Of a stretch of 64,000 bases of DNA, positions 1 to 61,931 are shown piece by piece. A program made the translations under genes and the position numbers. The first letter of the stretch is position 1. Every line of letters begins with the position of its first letter. The notes beneath the pieces were generated by a model. It made no database searches, was not told the DNA's origin, and worked only from the letters and a program-made list of their open reading frames with translations. The stretch is from Molanna angustata (taxonomy: Eukaryota; Arthropoda; Insecta; Trichoptera; Molannidae). Location of the stretch: contig OY754968.1 in assembly GCA_963576475.1 (NCBI GenBank), positions 13,806,616-13,870,615 on the forward strand, read 5' to 3'.

Positions 1-122
1 TTCCTTCATACATTTCTTGCAATTTTATTTTATTTTTTATAATTTTTTAAAGCATGACCGCCAAATAAAATTTATTTTCCCGTAATATTTACGCATTTAT
101 TTATCTATTGATATAAAAATTA
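1..122. other. AT-rich DNA, nothing recognised
   Basis: No coding pattern, repeat or motif was recognised here. The upstream exons of the MRPS18B-like gene were looked for in this stretch and not found. Confidence 0.5.
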
Positions 123-125
123 TTG

Positions 126-262
126 CGATCGGCGAGGGACATCTTATTGAGTTCTATAATATTGCAAGATATTATAGAACTCCATAAGATAATTATATCC
201 GTGATATGGATGTTCATGAGGGTTTTGATTTCACCGTTTGGGGGGACTTGCCCCCTGGTCAG
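126..262 (+). mobile_element. Degenerate copy of a foldback MITE
   Basis: The right half, from GATATTATAGAACTCC to GACTTGCCCCCTGG, matches the right half of the complete foldback element at 7805-7989. The left arm is shortened or scrambled. The part around 150-185 is itself palindromic (GAGTTCTATAAT / ATTATAGAACTC). It appears to be an old copy of a non-autonomous DNA element. Confidence 0.55.
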
Positions 263-500
263 ATCCTTACACAGAGCACTGGATCGATGGGCCGGATTGC
301 AATCCCTAAACTCCACACATTCATTTTTCTAACTATCTTTAGTTTTGAATGTATATGGAGACTAGAAAAAATACAAAAGCCTGTTTCCAAAATATGGTAC
401 AATCTCATTACTCCGGCACTTATGCAGTCGCAAGAGTGCTGAATTACATAAAGTTTGTAAAAAAATATTCATAGAGTGCTTTTCACTTAATATGTATATG
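263..500. other. Spacer, nothing recognised
   Basis: This is AT-rich sequence between the MITE and the LINE remnant. Short chance ORFs only. Confidence 0.4.
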
Positions 501-2440
501 GAAAATTTGGAGACCAGTAAAAGTAGTTTCCATCCCAAAACCAGGCCGAGAAAACTATACAGAGGAAAAAGCTTTTCGACTGATCAGCTTAACCTCCTTT
601 GTTATCAAAACAATGGAAAAACTGGTTGACCGGTATGTAAAGGAGGGAGCATTAAGGAAAAAACCCTTGCACTGACACTTATTTGCATACCAACCGGGAA
701 GATCCACAGAAGCAGCACTACATGAAATAGCACTGAGCATCGAAAAATGCTTATATTATAAGGAGCTAGCACTTGGGACATTCATTGGCATAGAGGGAGC
801 ATTTGACCAAACCTCAAAGTGATTACCAAGGCTGCCAAGAGGCATGGTATTGAGAACACCATAAGAAGATGGAGCAACACAATGCTTAAAGATAGAATAA
901 TATCAGCGACCATTTTCATTGAATTGGTAAGGGCATTCACTAACAGAGGCTGTCCTCAGGGGGGGTACTGTCACCCCTACTTTGGACCCTGGTGGTGGAT
1001 GAACTACTTGTTAAACTTGAGGAAAAAGGGATTAAAGCCATATTGTGAGTGGAAAATTTCCAAGGACAGACTCGGAAGTGACTCAATCAGTTATCCAGAT
1101 AGTAAAAGAATGGTGCAAAGATGTTGGATTGAAAATTAACCTCAAAGCAGCATAAAAAGAAGAAACTAGAAGGGTTTATCACACCAACTCTTTTTGGAAA
1201 GCAGATCACACTTAGTGACCATATTTCAATACCTTGCAGCAATAATCGACAAGGGATTAAACTGGAAACAACACGTTGATTACATAATAAATAAAGCCAG
1301 TAGAGTTTTCTGAGCATGCAGAAGAACCTTTGGGAAATCATGGGGACTTAAACCCAAAACTCTATACTGGGTCTACACCACCAAAATTAAACCAATCATC
1401 AGCTATGCTGCACTGGTGTGGTGGCCAAGAACAAAACTTATATCCTGCAAGAACCAGCTAAGAAGGTTACAGAGACTTACGTATATGGGAATTACAGGTG
1501 CAATAAGAACAGCACCAACAGCTGCTTTAGAGGTCCTTCTTGGCCTCCCACACCTTCACATAGTGATTGAGGCAGAGGCGAGGCTTAGATTATACAGATT
1601 AGTCTGTAATAGCCTTTGGAGTAGTAAGTATGTAGGCTACGATCATACTAATTTTAGTGGGGACAAAATACTGTACTCATTACTACATACAAGTTCAGAT
1701 AAAATGTTAACAAGTATCACTACCAAAAACCATTCACAGTCAGTTACCCTACATATGAAGAATGTGATGGGAAAAAGAATACAAGCCAAAAAAGCAGGGA
1801 TTAAAAACCAACAAGGGCACTGGGACATTGTTGGGGAACCAGGATTAATTTTTCATGTAATCATAAAACGTGGATGTGAGAATATAAATAGGAACTATAT
1901 GAACAAGAACATTTATATTTGATTAGACAGCAAAGCAGCCCTTAAGGCGCCAGAATCATACCAGATTACAACAAAACTGGTATGGGACTGTCTAAAATAC
2001 CTTGAAAGACTAGGGTAACACAAAAAAAATAATTCAGTATGGGTATCTAGTCATAGAGGTATAAAGGGAAACGAGAGAGCAGATAAACTAGCGAAAAAGG
2101 GATCAAGGCAACTTTTCATAGGACTTGAACCAGCAGTTGGCATATCTGCAACCACGATTAAAAGATCAATCATAAACAGATAAGTTCAACATGAATTCTA
2201 GAAGACCAGTTGTGGACAACGACAGGCAAAATATTTCACTGTAGGGCCCTTCAAATAAAGGACAAGACAGCTGCTAAATCTCAGCAGGAACAATTGAGTA
2301 CAATGACTGGTTTATTCACTGGTCAATGTCATCTAAAGACACCATTGCACTGCTTTTTATCCAATCTGTTGGAGTATGTCATGTCTCCCAACATTTGTTG
2401 AAGAGGTGATAATGACACCACATTTCATCATCTTTACACC
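500..2440 (+). pseudogene. Decayed non-LTR retrotransposon: RT plus RNase H (I/jockey-like)
   Basis: Read across several frames, the strand shows the order of a LINE polyprotein. At about 530-800 comes 'IPKPGRENYTEEKAFRLISL', then a 'YQPGRSTEAALHEIAL' block and a degraded GAFD motif. At 1120-1560 there is a reverse-transcriptase thumb and connection region with 'LQRLTYMGITGA' and a 'LEVLLGLP' block. At 1915-2110 an RNase H domain carries 'LDSKAALKA' and 'GIKGNERADKLAKKGS'. At 2300-2340 comes the C-terminal 'LTGHC'-like block, now 'MTGLFTGQCHL'. The endonuclease half is missing, as expected of 5'-truncated insertions. Several stops and frameshifts mean it cannot be active. RNase H points to an I-like or related jockey-group element; the clade is not settled. 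Confidence 0.85.
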
Positions 2441-2490
2441 ACCATATTTGATAAATTTGTATACACCACCATATTTGATAAATTTGTATA
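2441..2490. repeat. 27-bp tandem duplication
   Basis: The unit CACCACCATATTTGATAAAT plus seven bases is present twice, back to back. Confidence 0.75.
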
Positions 2491-2690
2491 TGTGCATTTG
2501 CAGCTTTTCCTATATGTGCATGCTTCACATCTTCAATTGAAATTTTCTCACTGTCATTCTAATATTCGTTTATTGGTATTCTATTGTTCGTCAGACTTTC
2601 GCACTGTGTAATTTCAAATAACTCTTCAAAATATTCTTTCCATCCTTCCTTGACTTTTCCTTGTTGATTTACTCTTTTTTTTGATCCCAG
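2490..2690 (-). pseudogene. LINE fragment, linker before the reverse transcriptase
   Basis: On the minus strand the frame reads 'KEGWKEYFEELFE', followed by 'ISIEDVKHA' and a degraded GKA. This is the conserved 'RWKEYFEELL ... EV..A...LK.GKAAG' block that precedes the RT domain in RTE/jockey-type LINEs. Only about 200 bp remain, with an in-frame stop. It lies opposite in orientation to the LINE just upstream, so it is a separate insertion. Confidence 0.6.
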
Positions 2691-2774
2691 AAAAATCATT
2701 CAATAATTTTTATACATTGGCTCATTCCATATGATATCAACACACTAAAATAAAAATAAGTGGGTTTACACTAA

Positions 2775-3332
2775 ACTCTCCACACCATAGTAAATGTTCA
2801 TTTTTTCTTCTTGAAAAGTTGACAATCTCTAGATGCATTTTCATGAAGAACATTTATATTAGATTCTTAAACAAATATAAGATTCCCAGAGGACAAAAGT
2901 TTTCACAATACACCATACATACAAAAATATTGTCACGAAACGACTTTACATAATATATGATATCAATATAAAGTCAATCGGACTTATAGTTTGGGCTGCA
3001 GAGAGGACACAAAAAAAAACAACGTAAATAATGAATTCATAGAGAAGAAATTAAAAGTTGTCTATGGAAATCTAATCAGTAATGTGTAATCTAATCAGTA
3101 AGTGCATAGACCTCTAGGTCTATGCACTTTACACATATAATGTTAATATGAAGTCAATCGGACTGAACGGTGAACGGTGATCATCCATTATGGCGCAAGC
3201 CACACATACAAACACATCACGATGAAACTCATAGTGTGCACTCTACATGATACCCATTGAAAAATTGATATAAAAAAATATGTTTAAAAATTGTGAAATC
3301 ATGACTCTCCACTATTCCACAGTGTGGAGAGT
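2775..3332 (+). mobile_element. Element with ACTCTCCACAC termini, internally deleted copy
   Basis: It begins ACTCTCCACACCATAG and ends with a hairpin GACTCTCC...GTGTGGAGAGT whose last arm is the inverted copy of the start. The same ends and body recur at 57409-58522 (1.1 kb, fuller copy). Part of the body recurs at 59640-59830, and one end lies inverted at 22022-22100. It is non-coding, so probably a non-autonomous DNA transposon. The sequence just outside the left end (AAGTGGGTT...ACACTAAACTC) is also shared, so the true boundary may lie about 25 bp further left. Confidence 0.6.
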
Positions 3333-3678
3333 AAAAAACTAATGATTAATTCAATCAATATTTTTTTCAAATTATCTGTACTTTCGGATTACTGGACATG
3401 CTGATATAGTGAAGTGCCGGAGTAGAAAGATTGTACTGTATAGTAAATAATAGATTTAGGTATAGTAAAAAAACAAGTATTTATGATTGTGAGAAAAAAT
3501 AATGGTTTTATGAAAAAAGGAAAGCTACATATGTAAAATAACTCAAGACTAACCTATCAGACTCCTTGGAATGATCCTGAATCATTAAATGGCGCTATTA
3601 AAATAATAATGATTATTAAGGAAAATCCTGTATACTTTTTTATAAATGGCATTAAACAAGACTTTTTGTATGTTTCAG
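3333..3678 (+). other. Intron of the MRPS18B-like gene (3' part)
   Basis: This is AT-rich and non-coding. It ends in the acceptor TTTTTGTATGTTTCAG directly before the exon at 3679. No further exon of the gene was found upstream in the window. Confidence 0.55.
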
Positions 3679-3834
3679 ATTCTCAGTTATCGTAAAACTG
3701 GATTATGTCAAAAAAAACATAAAGAACTTGAAATCTCAATTCTCCGTTCTTATGATCAAGGATTGTTATCATATGATGTTCCTTTTCGTGAATATGATTA
3801 TTTAGAATATTTACCAAAAAGTGAAACAAAATAA
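3679..3834 (+). CDS. MRPS18B: Mitochondrial ribosomal protein S18B-like, last coding exon (partial)
   Basis: A splice acceptor (TATGTTTCAG) is followed by 51 codons and a TAA. The peptide begins ILSYRKTGLCQKKHKELE and ends SYDVPFREYDYLEYLP plus five residues. The 'TGLC.k.hk.Le.ai..A.d.GLL' pattern is the C-terminal signature of the bacterial S18/mitochondrial S18 family. It fits the MRPS18B branch best, where TGVC is followed by a QHKRL-like stretch and a hydrophobic end. S18 proteins sit in the small subunit of the mitochondrial ribosome. The exon start is fixed by the acceptor; the ATG at 3646 lies in the intron. Upstream exons are not visible and probably lie before base 1. The stop (3832-3834) is one base from the PYROXD1 ATG. 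The assignment rests on a short peptide, so another S18 paralogue (S18A/C) is possible but less likely. Confidence 0.7.
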   Translation: MLSYRKTGLCQKKHKELEISILRSYDQGLLSYDVPFREYDYLEYLPKSETK

Positions 3835-3835
3835 T

Positions 3836-5242
3836 ATGGCATCTGCAACATTTGTAGTAATAGGTGGTGGAATTTCAGGCGTAACCTGTGTGGAACATTT
3901 GAGTTTTCTAGCTCCTGAAGAGAAAATTATTTTAATTACAGCTTCTCCTCTAATAAAAAGTGTAACAGATCTAATCCCTCTCAGTAAAACTGTGTACAAG
4001 TTTAATGTTTCAGAAAAAAATGTGGAATCACTCAGAATTAAATATCCTAACATGCAGATTGTTTACGATAAATTAGAAAATATAATATCAACAAATAATA
4101 AAGTTTTAACTAAAAATGGCTTGGAAATTCAATACAAATATCTTTGCCTTTGCACTGGAGCAATTCCAAAGATTATTCATGAAGCGAATAATAACCCAAG
4201 AGTGATTGTTATTAGAGATACAGATTCTGTAGAAAACCTTCTCAAAAAGTTGGAAGGATCAAAACGCATTATTATAGTTGGAAATGGTGGGATTGCATCG
4301 GAATTAGTTTATGCAATAAAAAATGTTGAAGTTTATTGGGTTATTAAAGATAAATATATTTCTTCTACTTTTGTTGACCCTGGTGCTGCTGAATTTTTTA
4401 AATCCAGTTTACTTTCACAAAAGTCTAGTGATTCAGTAACAAATGTAACAAGTATGAAAAGGATAAGATATACCGAAGATAAAAATACATCTTTACAAAA
4501 AGGTGAAAGAGCTGCAGCTTTAGGTCCAGATTGGTTAAAACAGAAAAACATTTGTGGAGATGGTGAATATTCTTTAAAAATTATATATGAGACAAACATT
4601 ATAAATATTAAAAATGAAAAAGAAGAATGGCCATTGCAAGTAGAACTTTCAAATGGACAATTTATAAATTGTGATCTGATAGTATCAGCAATAGGTGTTA
4701 TTCCGTCTATAAGATTCACTTGTGATAAACAATTTATATTAGGCCCTGATGGTGGTTTGGCTGTCGATTGGCAAATGAAAACTTCTGTTGATAATATTTT
4801 TGCTGCAGGTGATGTTGTTTTTGCAAACTGGACATTGGCTTTGCATTGGTTTCAAATGCGTCTTTGGACTCAAGCTTACCAAATGGGATCAATGGCTGCT
4901 AAAAGTATGAATGCGTCACATGTTCAGGAGGAAATCTTGCAAGATTTTTGTTTTGAACTTTTCACTCATACTACGACACTATTTGGATATCAAGTAGTCC
5001 TTCTGGGAAAGTATAATGGACAAGGTCTTGGATCCAACTATGAAATTTTGATTCGCACAACACCAAAACTGGAATACATCAAATTTGTTTTAGTAGATAA
5101 TAAATTACAAGGTGTAATTCTTATTGGAGAAACAGGACTTGAAGAAACATGTGAAAATTTAATACTAAATCAAATTGATTTATCGCCATATGGTGATGAT
5201 ATTTTAAACCCTGATATTGATATAGAAGATTATTTTGACTAA
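3836..5242 (+). CDS. PYROXD1: PYROXD1, FAD/NAD-dependent pyridine nucleotide-disulphide oxidoreductase-like
   Basis: This is one uninterrupted frame of 468 codons. Residues 7-15 (VVIGGGISG) are the FAD-binding GxGxxG turn. CTGAIPK at about 106-112 is the second flavin-contact block. IIIVGNGGIASE at about 145-156 is the NAD(P)H-binding GxGxxG/A. NIFAAGDVVFAN at about 320-331 is the second FAD motif. Family-specific stretches DPGAAEFF, GPDWL and WTQAYQMGSMAAK identify PYROXD1 rather than a generic class I reductase, and there is no redox-active CxxxxC pair. Human PYROXD1 is about 500 residues, so this is near full length. In vertebrates it protects the tRNA ligase complex from oxidation and is linked to myopathy (family knowledge). 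The first ATG in the frame is at 3836; in-frame codons before it belong to the preceding exon's region. The start lies one base after the MRPS18B-like stop, with no room for a promoter or 5' UTR of its own unless inside that exon. No intron is needed. Confidence 0.95.
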   Translation: MASATFVVIGGGISGVTCVEHLSFLAPEEKIILITASPLIKSVTDLIPLSKTVYKFNVSEKNVESLRIKYPNMQIVYDKLENIISTNNKVLTKNGLEIQYKYLCLCTGAIPKIIHEANNNPRVIVIRDTDSVENLLKKLEGSKRIIIVGNGGIASELVYAIKNVEVYWVIKDKYISSTFVDPGAAEFFKSSLLSQKSSDSVTNVTSMKRIRYTEDKNTSLQKGERAAALGPDWLKQKNICGDGEYSLKIIYETNIINIKNEKEEWPLQVELSNGQFINCDLIVSAIGVIPSIRFTCDKQFILGPDGGLAVDWQMKTSVDNIFAAGDVVFANWTLALHWFQMRLWTQAYQMGSMAAKSMNASHVQEEILQDFCFELFTHTTTLFGYQVVLLGKYNGQGLGSNYEILIRTTPKLEYIKFVLVDNKLQGVILIGETGLEETCENLILNQIDLSPYGDDILNPDIDIEDYFD

Positions 5243-5510
5243 CGTTTGAATTCAAATATAAGTTTTATCGTTTCATAGATAAATGATTTCATTGTACTAA
5301 AAGTAATGTACCTCAATATACGGAATATTAACTAGTTAAAAATTATATTCTGCTTAAAGATTACATGCATACAGCTTTTTTTATTATTAATCCTTACCTC
5401 TGTATCACTATTTAGTTGGAAAAATTGATAAATGGTAATAAACTCACCACTTGCACTGGGTGCAAGGAAGTGTTTATTATCATTATCTACCTGCCTAATA
5501 GTTCTGAAAT
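5243..5510 (+). other. PYROXD1: 3' flank of PYROXD1
   Basis: AT-rich probable 3' UTR. No clear gene or named repeat was seen. AATAAA lies at about 5437 and could serve as a poly(A) signal. Confidence 0.4.
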
Positions 5511-5717
5511 ATATAATTTTTTTTTAAATATATGGTAATTCATCCAATGTTTATGTCTGAAGTCATGAACAACATACTTATATAATTTTTTTTTAAATAT
5601 ATGGTAATTCATCCAATGTTTATGTCTGAAGTCATGAACAACATACTTATATAATTTTTTTTTAAATATATGGTAATTCATCCAATGTTTATGTCTGAAG
5701 TCATGAACAACATACTT
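5511..5717. repeat. Three 69-bp tandem repeats
   Basis: Three essentially identical 69-bp units, each running from TATAATTTTTTTTTAAATAT to CATGAACAACATACTTA. Because 69 is divisible by three, the minus strand stays open with a repeated 23-residue unit. This looks like a by-product of the period, not a gene. Confidence 0.9.
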
Positions 5718-6160
5718 ATCTACATGATAAGATACAAAAGAGAAAGGCAATCATGATTTCACGGGGCTCATGAATCCAGGCACGCGAGCACAGGCGACCA
5801 GAGTACCAGCCAGAATAGGTGAGCAACATGGGCTTGCGACCATGTATGCAGACTTAAAGGGCCCATTTATGACTCGAGTCACGCTCACCACTCACCCACC
5901 AACCTCTGACTGATACTCCAATCCCCTGTGCAACCAAATCCAATAAGACGCGGACAATGTTACTTTTACCATTGTCAAAATGTTTCTTAAAAGTATTTTG
6001 AATGTAGGTCATTGAGAAGCAATTACAAATTTTGAGTAAAAAACAATTGTAAGGAAAAAATAAAAAATGTAGTTCTACCACGAGTATCACAGTATAATTT
6101 TTTCGGTAATTGGTAAATTTTAGTAGGTTAGGTTAAGTTTTTTGTCATCATATTTTATTA
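5718..6160. other. Intergenic DNA, nothing recognised
   Basis: No coding pattern with family signature was found. The stretch at 5760-5880 is richer in GC and CpG than its surroundings and might be an old element end. Confidence 0.4.
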
Positions 6161-6164
6161 GTTC

Positions 6165-6256
6165 ATGGAATGGAAGAGCTGTTACGGCTAGCTCAGGAAA
6201 GAGAAGCCTATGCCAGATTAATAGCTGAAGTCAAGGGAACCTGACATGGCATACTA
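6165..6256 (+). pseudogene. LINE 3'-end fragment
   Basis: The plus strand reads 'EELLRLAQEREAYARLIAEVKGT' and then stop, followed by CCTGACATGGCA. This is the same C-terminus and 3' UTR start seen at 31190-31375 ('EELFRTAQDREAF...NIGET', GACCTGACATGACA) and at 26040-26090. It lies directly before the 31-bp minisatellite, which therefore seems to have grown from the element's 3' tail. Confidence 0.65.
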
Positions 6257-7404
6257 TATTATAAAACTATCACATCTACCTATACTATACTATAAAACTA
6301 TCACATCTACCTATACTATACTATAAAACTATCACATCTACCTATACTATACTATAAAACTATCACATCTACCTATACTATACTATAAAACTATCACATC
6401 TACCTATACTATACTATAAAACTATCACATCTACCTATACTATACTATAAAACTATCACATCTACCTATACTATACTATACTATAAAACTATCACATCTA
6501 CCTATACTATACTATAAAACTATCACATCTACCTATACTATACTATAAAACTATCACATCTACCTATACTATACTATAAAACTATCACATCTACCTATAC
6601 TATACTATAAAACTATCACATCTACCTATACTATACTATACTATAAAACTATCACATCTACCTATACTATACTATAAAACTATCACATCTACCTATACTA
6701 TACTATAAAACTATCACATCTACCTATACTATACTATAAAACTATCACATCTACCTATACTATACTATAAAACTATCACATCTACCTATACTATACTATA
6801 AAACTATCACATCTACCTATACTATACTATAAAACTATCACATCTACCTATACTATACTATAAAACTATCACATCTACCTATACTATACTATACTATAAA
6901 ACTATCACATCTACCTATACTATACTATACTATAAAACTATCACATCTACCTATACTATACTATAAAACTATCACATCTACCTATACTATACTATAAAAC
7001 TATCACATCTACCTATACTATACTATACTATAAAACTATCACATCTACCTATACTATACTATAAAACTATCACATCTACCTATACTATACTATACTATAA
7101 AACTATCACATCTACCTATACTATACTATCACATCTACCTATACTATACTATACTATAAAACTATCACATCTACCTATACTATACTATAAAACTATCACA
7201 TCTACCTATACTATACTATACTATAAAACTATCACATCTACCTATACTATACTATAAAACTATCACATCTACCTATACTATACTATACTATAAAACTATC
7301 ACATCTACCTATACTATACTATAAAACTATCACATCTACCTATACTATACTATAAAACTATCACATCTACCTATAGTATACTATAAAACTATTATATTTA
7401 CCTA
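6257..7404. repeat. Minisatellite, 31-bp unit with 36-bp variants, about 35 copies
   Basis: The unit is TATAAAACTATCACATCTAC plus CTATACTATAC. Many copies carry one extra TATAC (36 bp), scattered irregularly, and one copy near 7125 lacks the TATAAAAC part. Copies are otherwise nearly identical, which implies recent homogenisation. Confidence 0.95.
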
Positions 7405-7804
7405 TTTACAGAAGTGCATTTCAAATTATAAGGGGTGCCAAATAGACAGGTAGGTATTACAAGAAATACAATATTCAAAGAAAGTCCATTAAGTTTGAAC
7501 GTTTTGTATTGTGTTTTAATAATTAATACACATTTACTAGAAAAATAATTTTATTTCTGTACATATTAAAGCTTTTAAATAAAAATATAACTTTATAAAA
7601 ATGTAGGATATTTTTTTAAGTTTTTAGTATCAACATTAACCACTTCATGCTTTTGAACAAGCAGTGTTTGCGGGTGGCGCATGCGTCCTATAGCGCCAAC
7701 CCAAGCACTGCTCGTATGCTTTTATAAGATATGCGATCAGTGCTCACCAATTTACGAAAATCATTTCTTCTGTTTTGCATATTTTACTGCTTATATAATA
7801 ACCT
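7405..7804. other. Spacer with a short inverted repeat
   Basis: Mostly AT-rich. At 7661-7722 two arms, AGCAGTGTTTGCGGGTGGCG and its near-complement GCGCCAACCCAAGCACTGCT, face each other across about 12 bp. They would form a GC-rich hairpin. No known element was recognised. Confidence 0.5.
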
Positions 7805-11807: not shown

Positions 11808-36912
<25,105 letters not shown>

Positions 36913-48869: not shown

Positions 48870-49162
48870 GTTGGAAAAAAATGTTTGTCAATAAAAATAT
48901 CAAAATTGAAAAGATAAAATGGTAAATGGTGTGTACACCATAGATGATATGTACAGTTTCTGTATACGTAGGTCAAATCGTCTGTCTTGTCAATTGTCAA
49001 ATACAAAACACGTCAGTGCTTTGAATTTAGCCCAGCTTTAAAAACTATCATATATGTAATTTCGGTCGCATTTTGTATTGAAGTTATTAATAACATAAAT
49101 AGGTTAAATAATATTTCAATAGACAAAAGTTTTGCAAGCATTATAATTAATTTATTTAAAAA
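48870..49162 (+). promoter_or_regulatory. Catsup: Catsup 5' flank
   Basis: The only space between the solo LTR and the Catsup ATG. It must contain the proximal promoter or 5' UTR unless the LTR supplies one. No TATA box or initiator stands out. Confidence 0.4.
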
Positions 49163-50236
49163 ATGTATACATTTAATAGGTTAGTTTTACTATGGATAGG
49201 ATTATTAGTGATTATTTTAATATCTTCATGTTCTTCACATGATCATTCTCACCATTCACATGATCATTCTCATGAGCATTCTCATCATTTACATGAAGAT
49301 CAAGAGTCACCGTCATATAAATATTCTCAAGCTGCAAATGAAGCTAAAAAAAACAAGGAAAGAGATACAATGGATTCATCACAGTTTAAAGAAGAAAGAG
49401 ATAATTACGAATTATGGATTTATGCAATGGGCTCTACACTGTTGATAAGTGCGGCTCCTTATCTAATTTTGTTTCTTGTTCCTGTTGATGGTACAGCAGA
49501 AAAACAGTCACTGTTAAAAGTTCTACTGGCATTTGCGTCCGGTGGTCTTTTGGGTGATGCATTTCTGCATCTGATTCCGCATGCTTTGACTCCACATAAC
49601 CATGGGCATCAGCACTCTCACAGTCATGATAACGAGGAACACACTCATGACATGAGCGTTGGTTTGGCCGTTTTGGGAGGAATAATAACATTTTTAATTG
49701 TAGAAAAATTTGTTCGTTTAATGAATGCAGGTCATGGACACAGTCATTCTAAAAACAAAAAGCAGTCTAAAACTGATACTATCAAAGTTGCTGGGTATTT
49801 GAATTTGGCTGCTGATTTTATGCATAATTTCACCGATGGGCTTGCAATAGGAGCTTCGTATGTAGCTGGAAAAAACATTGGAATTGTTACTACAATCACA
49901 ATTTTACTACACGAAGTTCCACATGAAGTGGGTGATTTTGCTATACTTTTACAATCTGGATGCTCTAGGAAGAAGGCTATGTACCTTCAATTAGTGACTG
50001 CGCTTGGTGCTGTAGCTGGAACAGCATTATCTTTGTTCCTTCAAGGAGATTCGGATTCCATTACCTCTTCTTGGATATTGCCCTTTACTGCTGGTGGATT
50101 TATATATATAGCTACTGTATCTGTGATACCTGAATTGTTAGAAGATTCTAATACTAAATTTTTACAGTCAATAAAAGAAATATTTGCTTTACTATGTGGT
50201 GTACTTATGATGGTTTTTATTGCAATGTATGAATAA
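49163..50236 (+). CDS. Catsup: Catsup / SLC39A7 (ZIP7) zinc transporter
   Basis: One intronless frame of 357 codons. Residues 5-23 are a hydrophobic signal or first membrane segment, then a His-rich stretch (25-45, [12 protein letters not shown]). Membrane helices follow near 86-107, 117-140 and 167-184. His-rich loops lie at 145-163 and 191-195. The metal site has [10 protein letters not shown] (221-230) and [14 protein letters not shown] (250-263), the HNxxD and HEVPHE motifs of the LIV-1 ZIP subfamily. [10 protein letters not shown] is specific to the ZIP7/Catsup branch. Family members move Zn2+ from the ER/Golgi to the cytosol; Drosophila Catsup also affects catecholamine synthesis and membrane trafficking (known). 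It is shorter than human ZIP7 (about 469 residues), mostly through shorter His-rich parts. Stop at 50234-50236. A retrocopy cannot be excluded, but the frame is fully intact. Confidence 0.95.

Positions 50237-52013: not shown

Positions 52014-61931
<9,918 letters not shown>

Follow-up and report, generated by a model that had tools for sequence, protein, structure and literature searches.

The window analyzed here is a 64,000-nucleotide stretch of the Molanna angustata genome that forms part of contig C4 of the assembly. Close to its start, two unrelated protein-coding sequences lie tail to head on the forward strand. The last coding exon of MRPS18B (mS40), assigned by direct reading and by matches to solved structures, occupies positions 3679..3834 (+) and consists of 51 codons and a TAA stop at 3832-3834. 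A single T at 3835 separates this stop from the ATG of PYROXD1 at 3836-3838, and the resulting junction, TAATATGG (TAA-T-ATGG; 3832..3839, +), places an A at -3 and a G at +4 of the PYROXD1 start. The preliminary description had reported an S18-type mitoribosomal last exon ending at this TAA, the ATG at 3836 as the only plausible PYROXD1 start, and two intact frames in the same orientation with no intergenic space. All three statements held: the exon through the direct read and the MRPS18B/mS40 matches, the start through the sequence and a nearly full-length match to a solved PYROXD1 chain, and the arrangement through the coordinates and both protein matches. Two separate open reading frames thus lie close together on the same strand, which is one of two features of a dicistronic locus in the FlyBase sense, the other being a processed mRNA that includes both.

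The assignment of the upstream gene to MRPS18B rests on several features. The best solved-structure matches of the last exon were MRPS18B/mS40 (E 1.2e-4), with S18A (0.39) and S18C (0.49) well behind; MRPS18C was dropped as the identity of the exon on the basis of these values. The protein resembles S18B more closely than S18A or S18C and includes the zinc region NPCPICRD, and the Pfam Ribosomal_S18 profile scored 20.5 bits on the last exon, just below its cut-off of 21. An upstream exon was sought by a motif scan of the three forward frames over 50 kb. One frame carries NPCPICRDEYLVL and ends in HTGQ at a GT donor (gtattt). This coding exon lies outside the window, at -1806 to -1402 (contig C4:13804809-13805213, +), and joins in frame to position 3679, giving a spliced product of 186 amino acids. 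The intron measures 5,080 nt, from the donor at -1401 to the TTTCAG that ends at 3678, and its 3′ part fills positions 1..3678 (+). Frames at 807-1922 within it resemble, by eye, a decayed non-LTR retroelement, and a Pfam search of these frames returned no match. The genome (995 Mb, 131 contigs) has one two-exon S18B locus and one weak match on another contig (32%, E 0.005) that is perhaps a paralogue.

The PYROXD1 gene is intronless and spans 3836..5242 (+), with 468 codons and a stop at 5240-5242 inside an open frame that extends from 3806 to 5242. Its product matches the solved PYROXD1 chain 8orj_B (E 8.8e-133) over residues 4-254 and 259-468 of 468, that is, nearly over its full length, and has the FAD motif and the DIEDYFD end. 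A search of the genome found one match, indicating a single copy. The next in-frame methionine falls beyond the FAD motif and, therefore, 3836 is the sole reasonable start. The first AATAAA on the 3′ side of the stop, at 5437..5442 (+), is a candidate for a poly(A) signal shared by both genes. Further downstream there are three perfect copies of a 69-bp unit (5510-5719) and, still a short distance from PYROXD1, an array of 36 copies of a 31-bp unit (6251-7405). The rest of the window includes reverse transcriptase open reading frames (PF00078) at 12700-13902 (-) and 55664-56437 (+), and an uninterrupted 358-amino acid frame for a ZIP zinc transporter (PF02535) at 49160-50236 (+). Two more open reading frames, 19525-20499 (-) and 20641-21225 (+), have a nearly identical stretch in common in inverted order; the former has a GIY-YIG domain and is presumably Penelope-like.

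The same order of genes was found in other insects. A protein search in which S18B was the scored region and the length bounds were those of S18B plus PYROXD1 returned 13 proteins from 163 candidates, and in ten of these over-long proteins S18B is followed by PYROXD1 in the same model. They come from Exocentrus, Trypoxylus, Molorchus and Gonioctena, which we take to be beetles; from Anopheles christyi, Glossina (two entries) and Clunio, presumably all flies; and from Diploptera and Blattella, which we take to be cockroaches. The three remaining proteins (Didymodactylos, an entry labelled Tk05432, and Notodromas) combine S18B with a different sequence. Nine of the ten joined models have the Pfam S18 label, and the Clunio model, which does not, has the zinc motif. 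Since the FAD-binding GxGxxG is absent from three of the ten and the S18B tail motif from four, the joined models are probably the work of gene predictors bridging two close genes and not true fusions. The A. christyi model reads SSS-N-MAEN at the joint. The S18B C-terminus is SSK in eight of 12 other named Anopheles proteins, so the A. christyi model seems to drop one lysine. The asparagine before the methionine would fit TAA-T-ATG, a gap that is not readable from a protein model as such.

A second comparison relied on the sizes of the contigs that encode the two proteins, and covered the best 120 of 1,388 PYROXD1 proteins and the best 120 of 591 S18B proteins, for which the contig size was known in 114 and 113 cases, respectively. 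At least seven S18B/PYROXD1 pairs were located on contigs of exactly equal size; 400 offset controls gave 0.91 on average and never more than 4. Both open reading frames fit in six of the seven (controls: mean 0.59, maximum 4), and a check of kinship retained five: Coccinella and the contigs of 2,844, 4,318, 6,680 and 8,480 nt. The Coccinella pair was matched by name on one chromosome-sized contig, which indicates linkage, not adjacency. The 2,844-nt contig leaves 897 nt outside the two frames. The 2,844, 6,680 and 8,480 rows are mutually consistent for both proteins (PYROXD1 81-85%, S18B 81-90%), and flies are the nearest by name to the S18B of the 6,680 row. Agreement is weaker in the 4,318 row, where PYROXD1 is nearest to beetles (74%) and S18B is as close to a beetle as to a cockroach (70%). 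A 1,730-nt pair was rejected because it is too short for the two frames and its PYROXD1 resembles that of moths. A 2,140-nt pair, first taken for a compact dicistronic contig, was also rejected, since it combines a PYROXD1 with 93% identity to Aedes and an S18B with 96% identity to Bactrocera. In a tree of 41 chosen PYROXD1 rows, four rows labelled lgn group with beetles; the lgn contigs may be genomic, and they do not prove a shared RNA. PYROXD1 scans of the viral_contigs and genome_contigs sets found no relative. The proposal that the pairing is conserved is supported by the ten joined models of 13 and by the five of seven equal-size pairs that passed the kinship check.

The tree joins the window protein to five other proteins (95/87), and this group to Lepidoptera and one further protein (97/96). 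Trichoptera is the sister order of Lepidoptera, and this placement therefore points to a caddisfly as the likely source. Many names in the two protein lists are shortened; four moths recognizable in both (Galleria, Diatraea, Amyelois and Plutella) have S18B and PYROXD1 on contigs of different size, which may come from different assemblies. On this basis, PYROXD1 seems able to do without S18B in moths, and the apparent split in Lepidoptera offers a natural comparison.

These results indicated that S18B and PYROXD1 are a genuine pair of very closely spaced genes, found linked in several insect orders, and the intactness and conservation of both proteins go beyond chance. Our preferred reading of the arrangement, somewhat better than an even bet, is that the two genes share a transcript. 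S18B has no room for a 3′ untranslated region of its own and, therefore, its mRNA must either end inside the PYROXD1 frame or contain PYROXD1. In the proposed pathway, transcription would begin at the S18B promoter, the intron would be removed and, given the lack of room after S18B, the mRNA would continue to a poly(A) site past PYROXD1, producing a dicistronic message. Ribosomes that finish S18B would then restart at UAAUAUGG, the most likely route to PYROXD1, perhaps assisted by additional transcripts of PYROXD1 alone. Reinitiation is inferred more weakly, and we would give it roughly half the weight of the shared transcript. Taken together as a conserved tail-to-head pair of winged insects with a dicistronic message and a restart of PYROXD1 after the S18B stop, the proposal stands at about even chances. 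Counting from the S18B start, there are 13 AUGs, and the PYROXD1 AUG alone combines a purine at -3 with a G at +4. Release 6.04 of the D. melanogaster genome has 159 annotated dicistronic pairs (PMC4528330), and dicistronic messages are thus not unusual in insects. A synonymous-shuffle test found no depletion of poly(A) signals within PYROXD1 (four AATAAA against 1.95 expected, with 99% of the shuffles at four or fewer) and early polyadenylation of the S18B mRNA is therefore possible. Nothing marks a reinitiation element in S18B exon 2, since the UGGGA core that defines TURBS 40-90 nt before a stop (PMC5972666) is absent (no TGGGA on the forward strand between 1987 and 4288) and the RNA before the S18B stop does not fold beyond chance (z -1.13; 29 of 200 shuffles had an equally stable or more stable fold). 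A search of Rfam over 3000-5600 gave nothing useful, and the efficiency of reinitiation drops as the first open reading frame lengthens (PMC11892635).

The most serious competitor of the shared transcript, which we consider plausible at somewhat over one chance in three, is that PYROXD1 is transcribed from a separate promoter, located either in the S18B intron or in its last exon, or that PYROXD1 has a first exon of its own, spliced to 3679 or to a weak acceptor at 3804-3805; the two genes would then simply be closely packed. None of the upstream AUGs would be in the way if transcription began within 41 nt of the PYROXD1 ATG or if the AG at 3804-3805 were used; PYROXD1 is apparently away from S18B in the four moths, and 45 of the 159 FlyBase dicistronic pairs have single-gene transcripts for both genes (PMC4528330). 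An initiator-like word, TCAGTT, occurs at 3683-3688, but one such word in the 836 nt scanned is close to the 0.89 expected by chance, it has no DPE or TATA partner, and a start there leaves five AUGs before PYROXD1 (-131, -84, -63, -60 and -42). The CpG profile and the search for promoter words gave nothing useful. Moreover, a free promoter alone would not explain why the order recurs across several insect orders.

Leaky scanning, the other translational option raised in the preliminary description, requires ribosomes to skip the S18B start and every AUG within S18B before beginning at PYROXD1. It is known for stoned and Snapin in Drosophila and in green algae (PMC11892635), and seven of the ten joined models have no methionine beyond the first in the counted stretch of the first cistron, a count that stops at a late motif and so excludes two later methionines of A. 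christyi. However, the window species has 12 AUGs before PYROXD1, a number not depleted relative to synonymous shuffles (12.85, sd 1.49). Nine of the 12 are out of frame and three are in the S18B frame; one of these three is the S18B start itself, with a G at -3 and a T at +4. Leaky scanning is thus disfavored in the window species, at perhaps one chance in ten. It could still apply in beetles, because their S18B proteins average 0.44 internal methionines (n=16), compared with 1.33 in Diptera (n=24), 1.60 in moths and butterflies (n=10) and 1.11 in others (n=9), averages that cover the 59 named proteins among the best 120 of 591. Finally, a +1 shift at the stop (AAA-U-AAU-AUG), or splicing within the last S18B exon, could yield a single fused protein. 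The ten joined models exist, and the A. christyi joint, with an Asn codon before Met, is consistent with TAA-T-ATG, but the loss of the FAD-binding motif or the S18B tail motif from some of these models is what annotation joins would be expected to show, and relatives such as A. gambiae and A. coluzzii have S18B and PYROXD1 as separate protein entries. We regard a fused protein as very improbable.

A stronger form of the shared transcript is doubtful, perhaps one chance in five. Here the dicistronic mRNA would be obligate and would have been retained since cockroaches, beetles and flies last shared an ancestor, with the output of PYROXD1 coupled to translation of S18B by stop and restart at UAAUAUG and no known reinitiation element. 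If true, it would link an oxidoreductase to mitochondrial ribosome supply. Should both proteins come from a single mRNA, the pair would be a long-lived cellular test case for how a second open reading frame is translated when the first is long, and one found in insects amenable to assay. Annotators should also be aware that gene predictors have merged S18B and PYROXD1 in at least ten database entries, which are probably false fusions.

The Drosophila counterparts suggested earlier were correct: CG10757 is named mRpS18B (PMC2246290) and CG10721 is the fly orthologue of PYROXD1 (PMC6710884). Neither mRpS18B nor CG10721 appears in the main text of PMC4528330. A literature search, supplements outside its scope, found no paper on MRPS18B and PYROXD1 as a pair (a mouse paper names each once), none with both fly names, and none with mRpS18B together with the term bicistronic. 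The TURBS of caliciviruses and influenza B resemble the junction in that a stop and a start lie within a few bases after a long open reading frame; they differ in having the UGGGA core that S18B exon 2 lacks, and the stop and start in the window do not overlap (PMC5972666). The stoned and Snapin loci also have a second open reading frame downstream of the first, although the first frame in the window, unlike theirs, is not depleted of AUGs (PMC11892635). The layout also resembles that of the FlyBase gene_with_dicistronic_mRNA pairs of Drosophila, in which two unrelated open reading frames occupy the same strand at close spacing; a shared transcript is annotated for those pairs and is proposed for the pair in the window. 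The eIF2-gamma / Su(var)3-9 unit of holometabolous insects is reportedly likewise an insect-specific joining of two unrelated genes.
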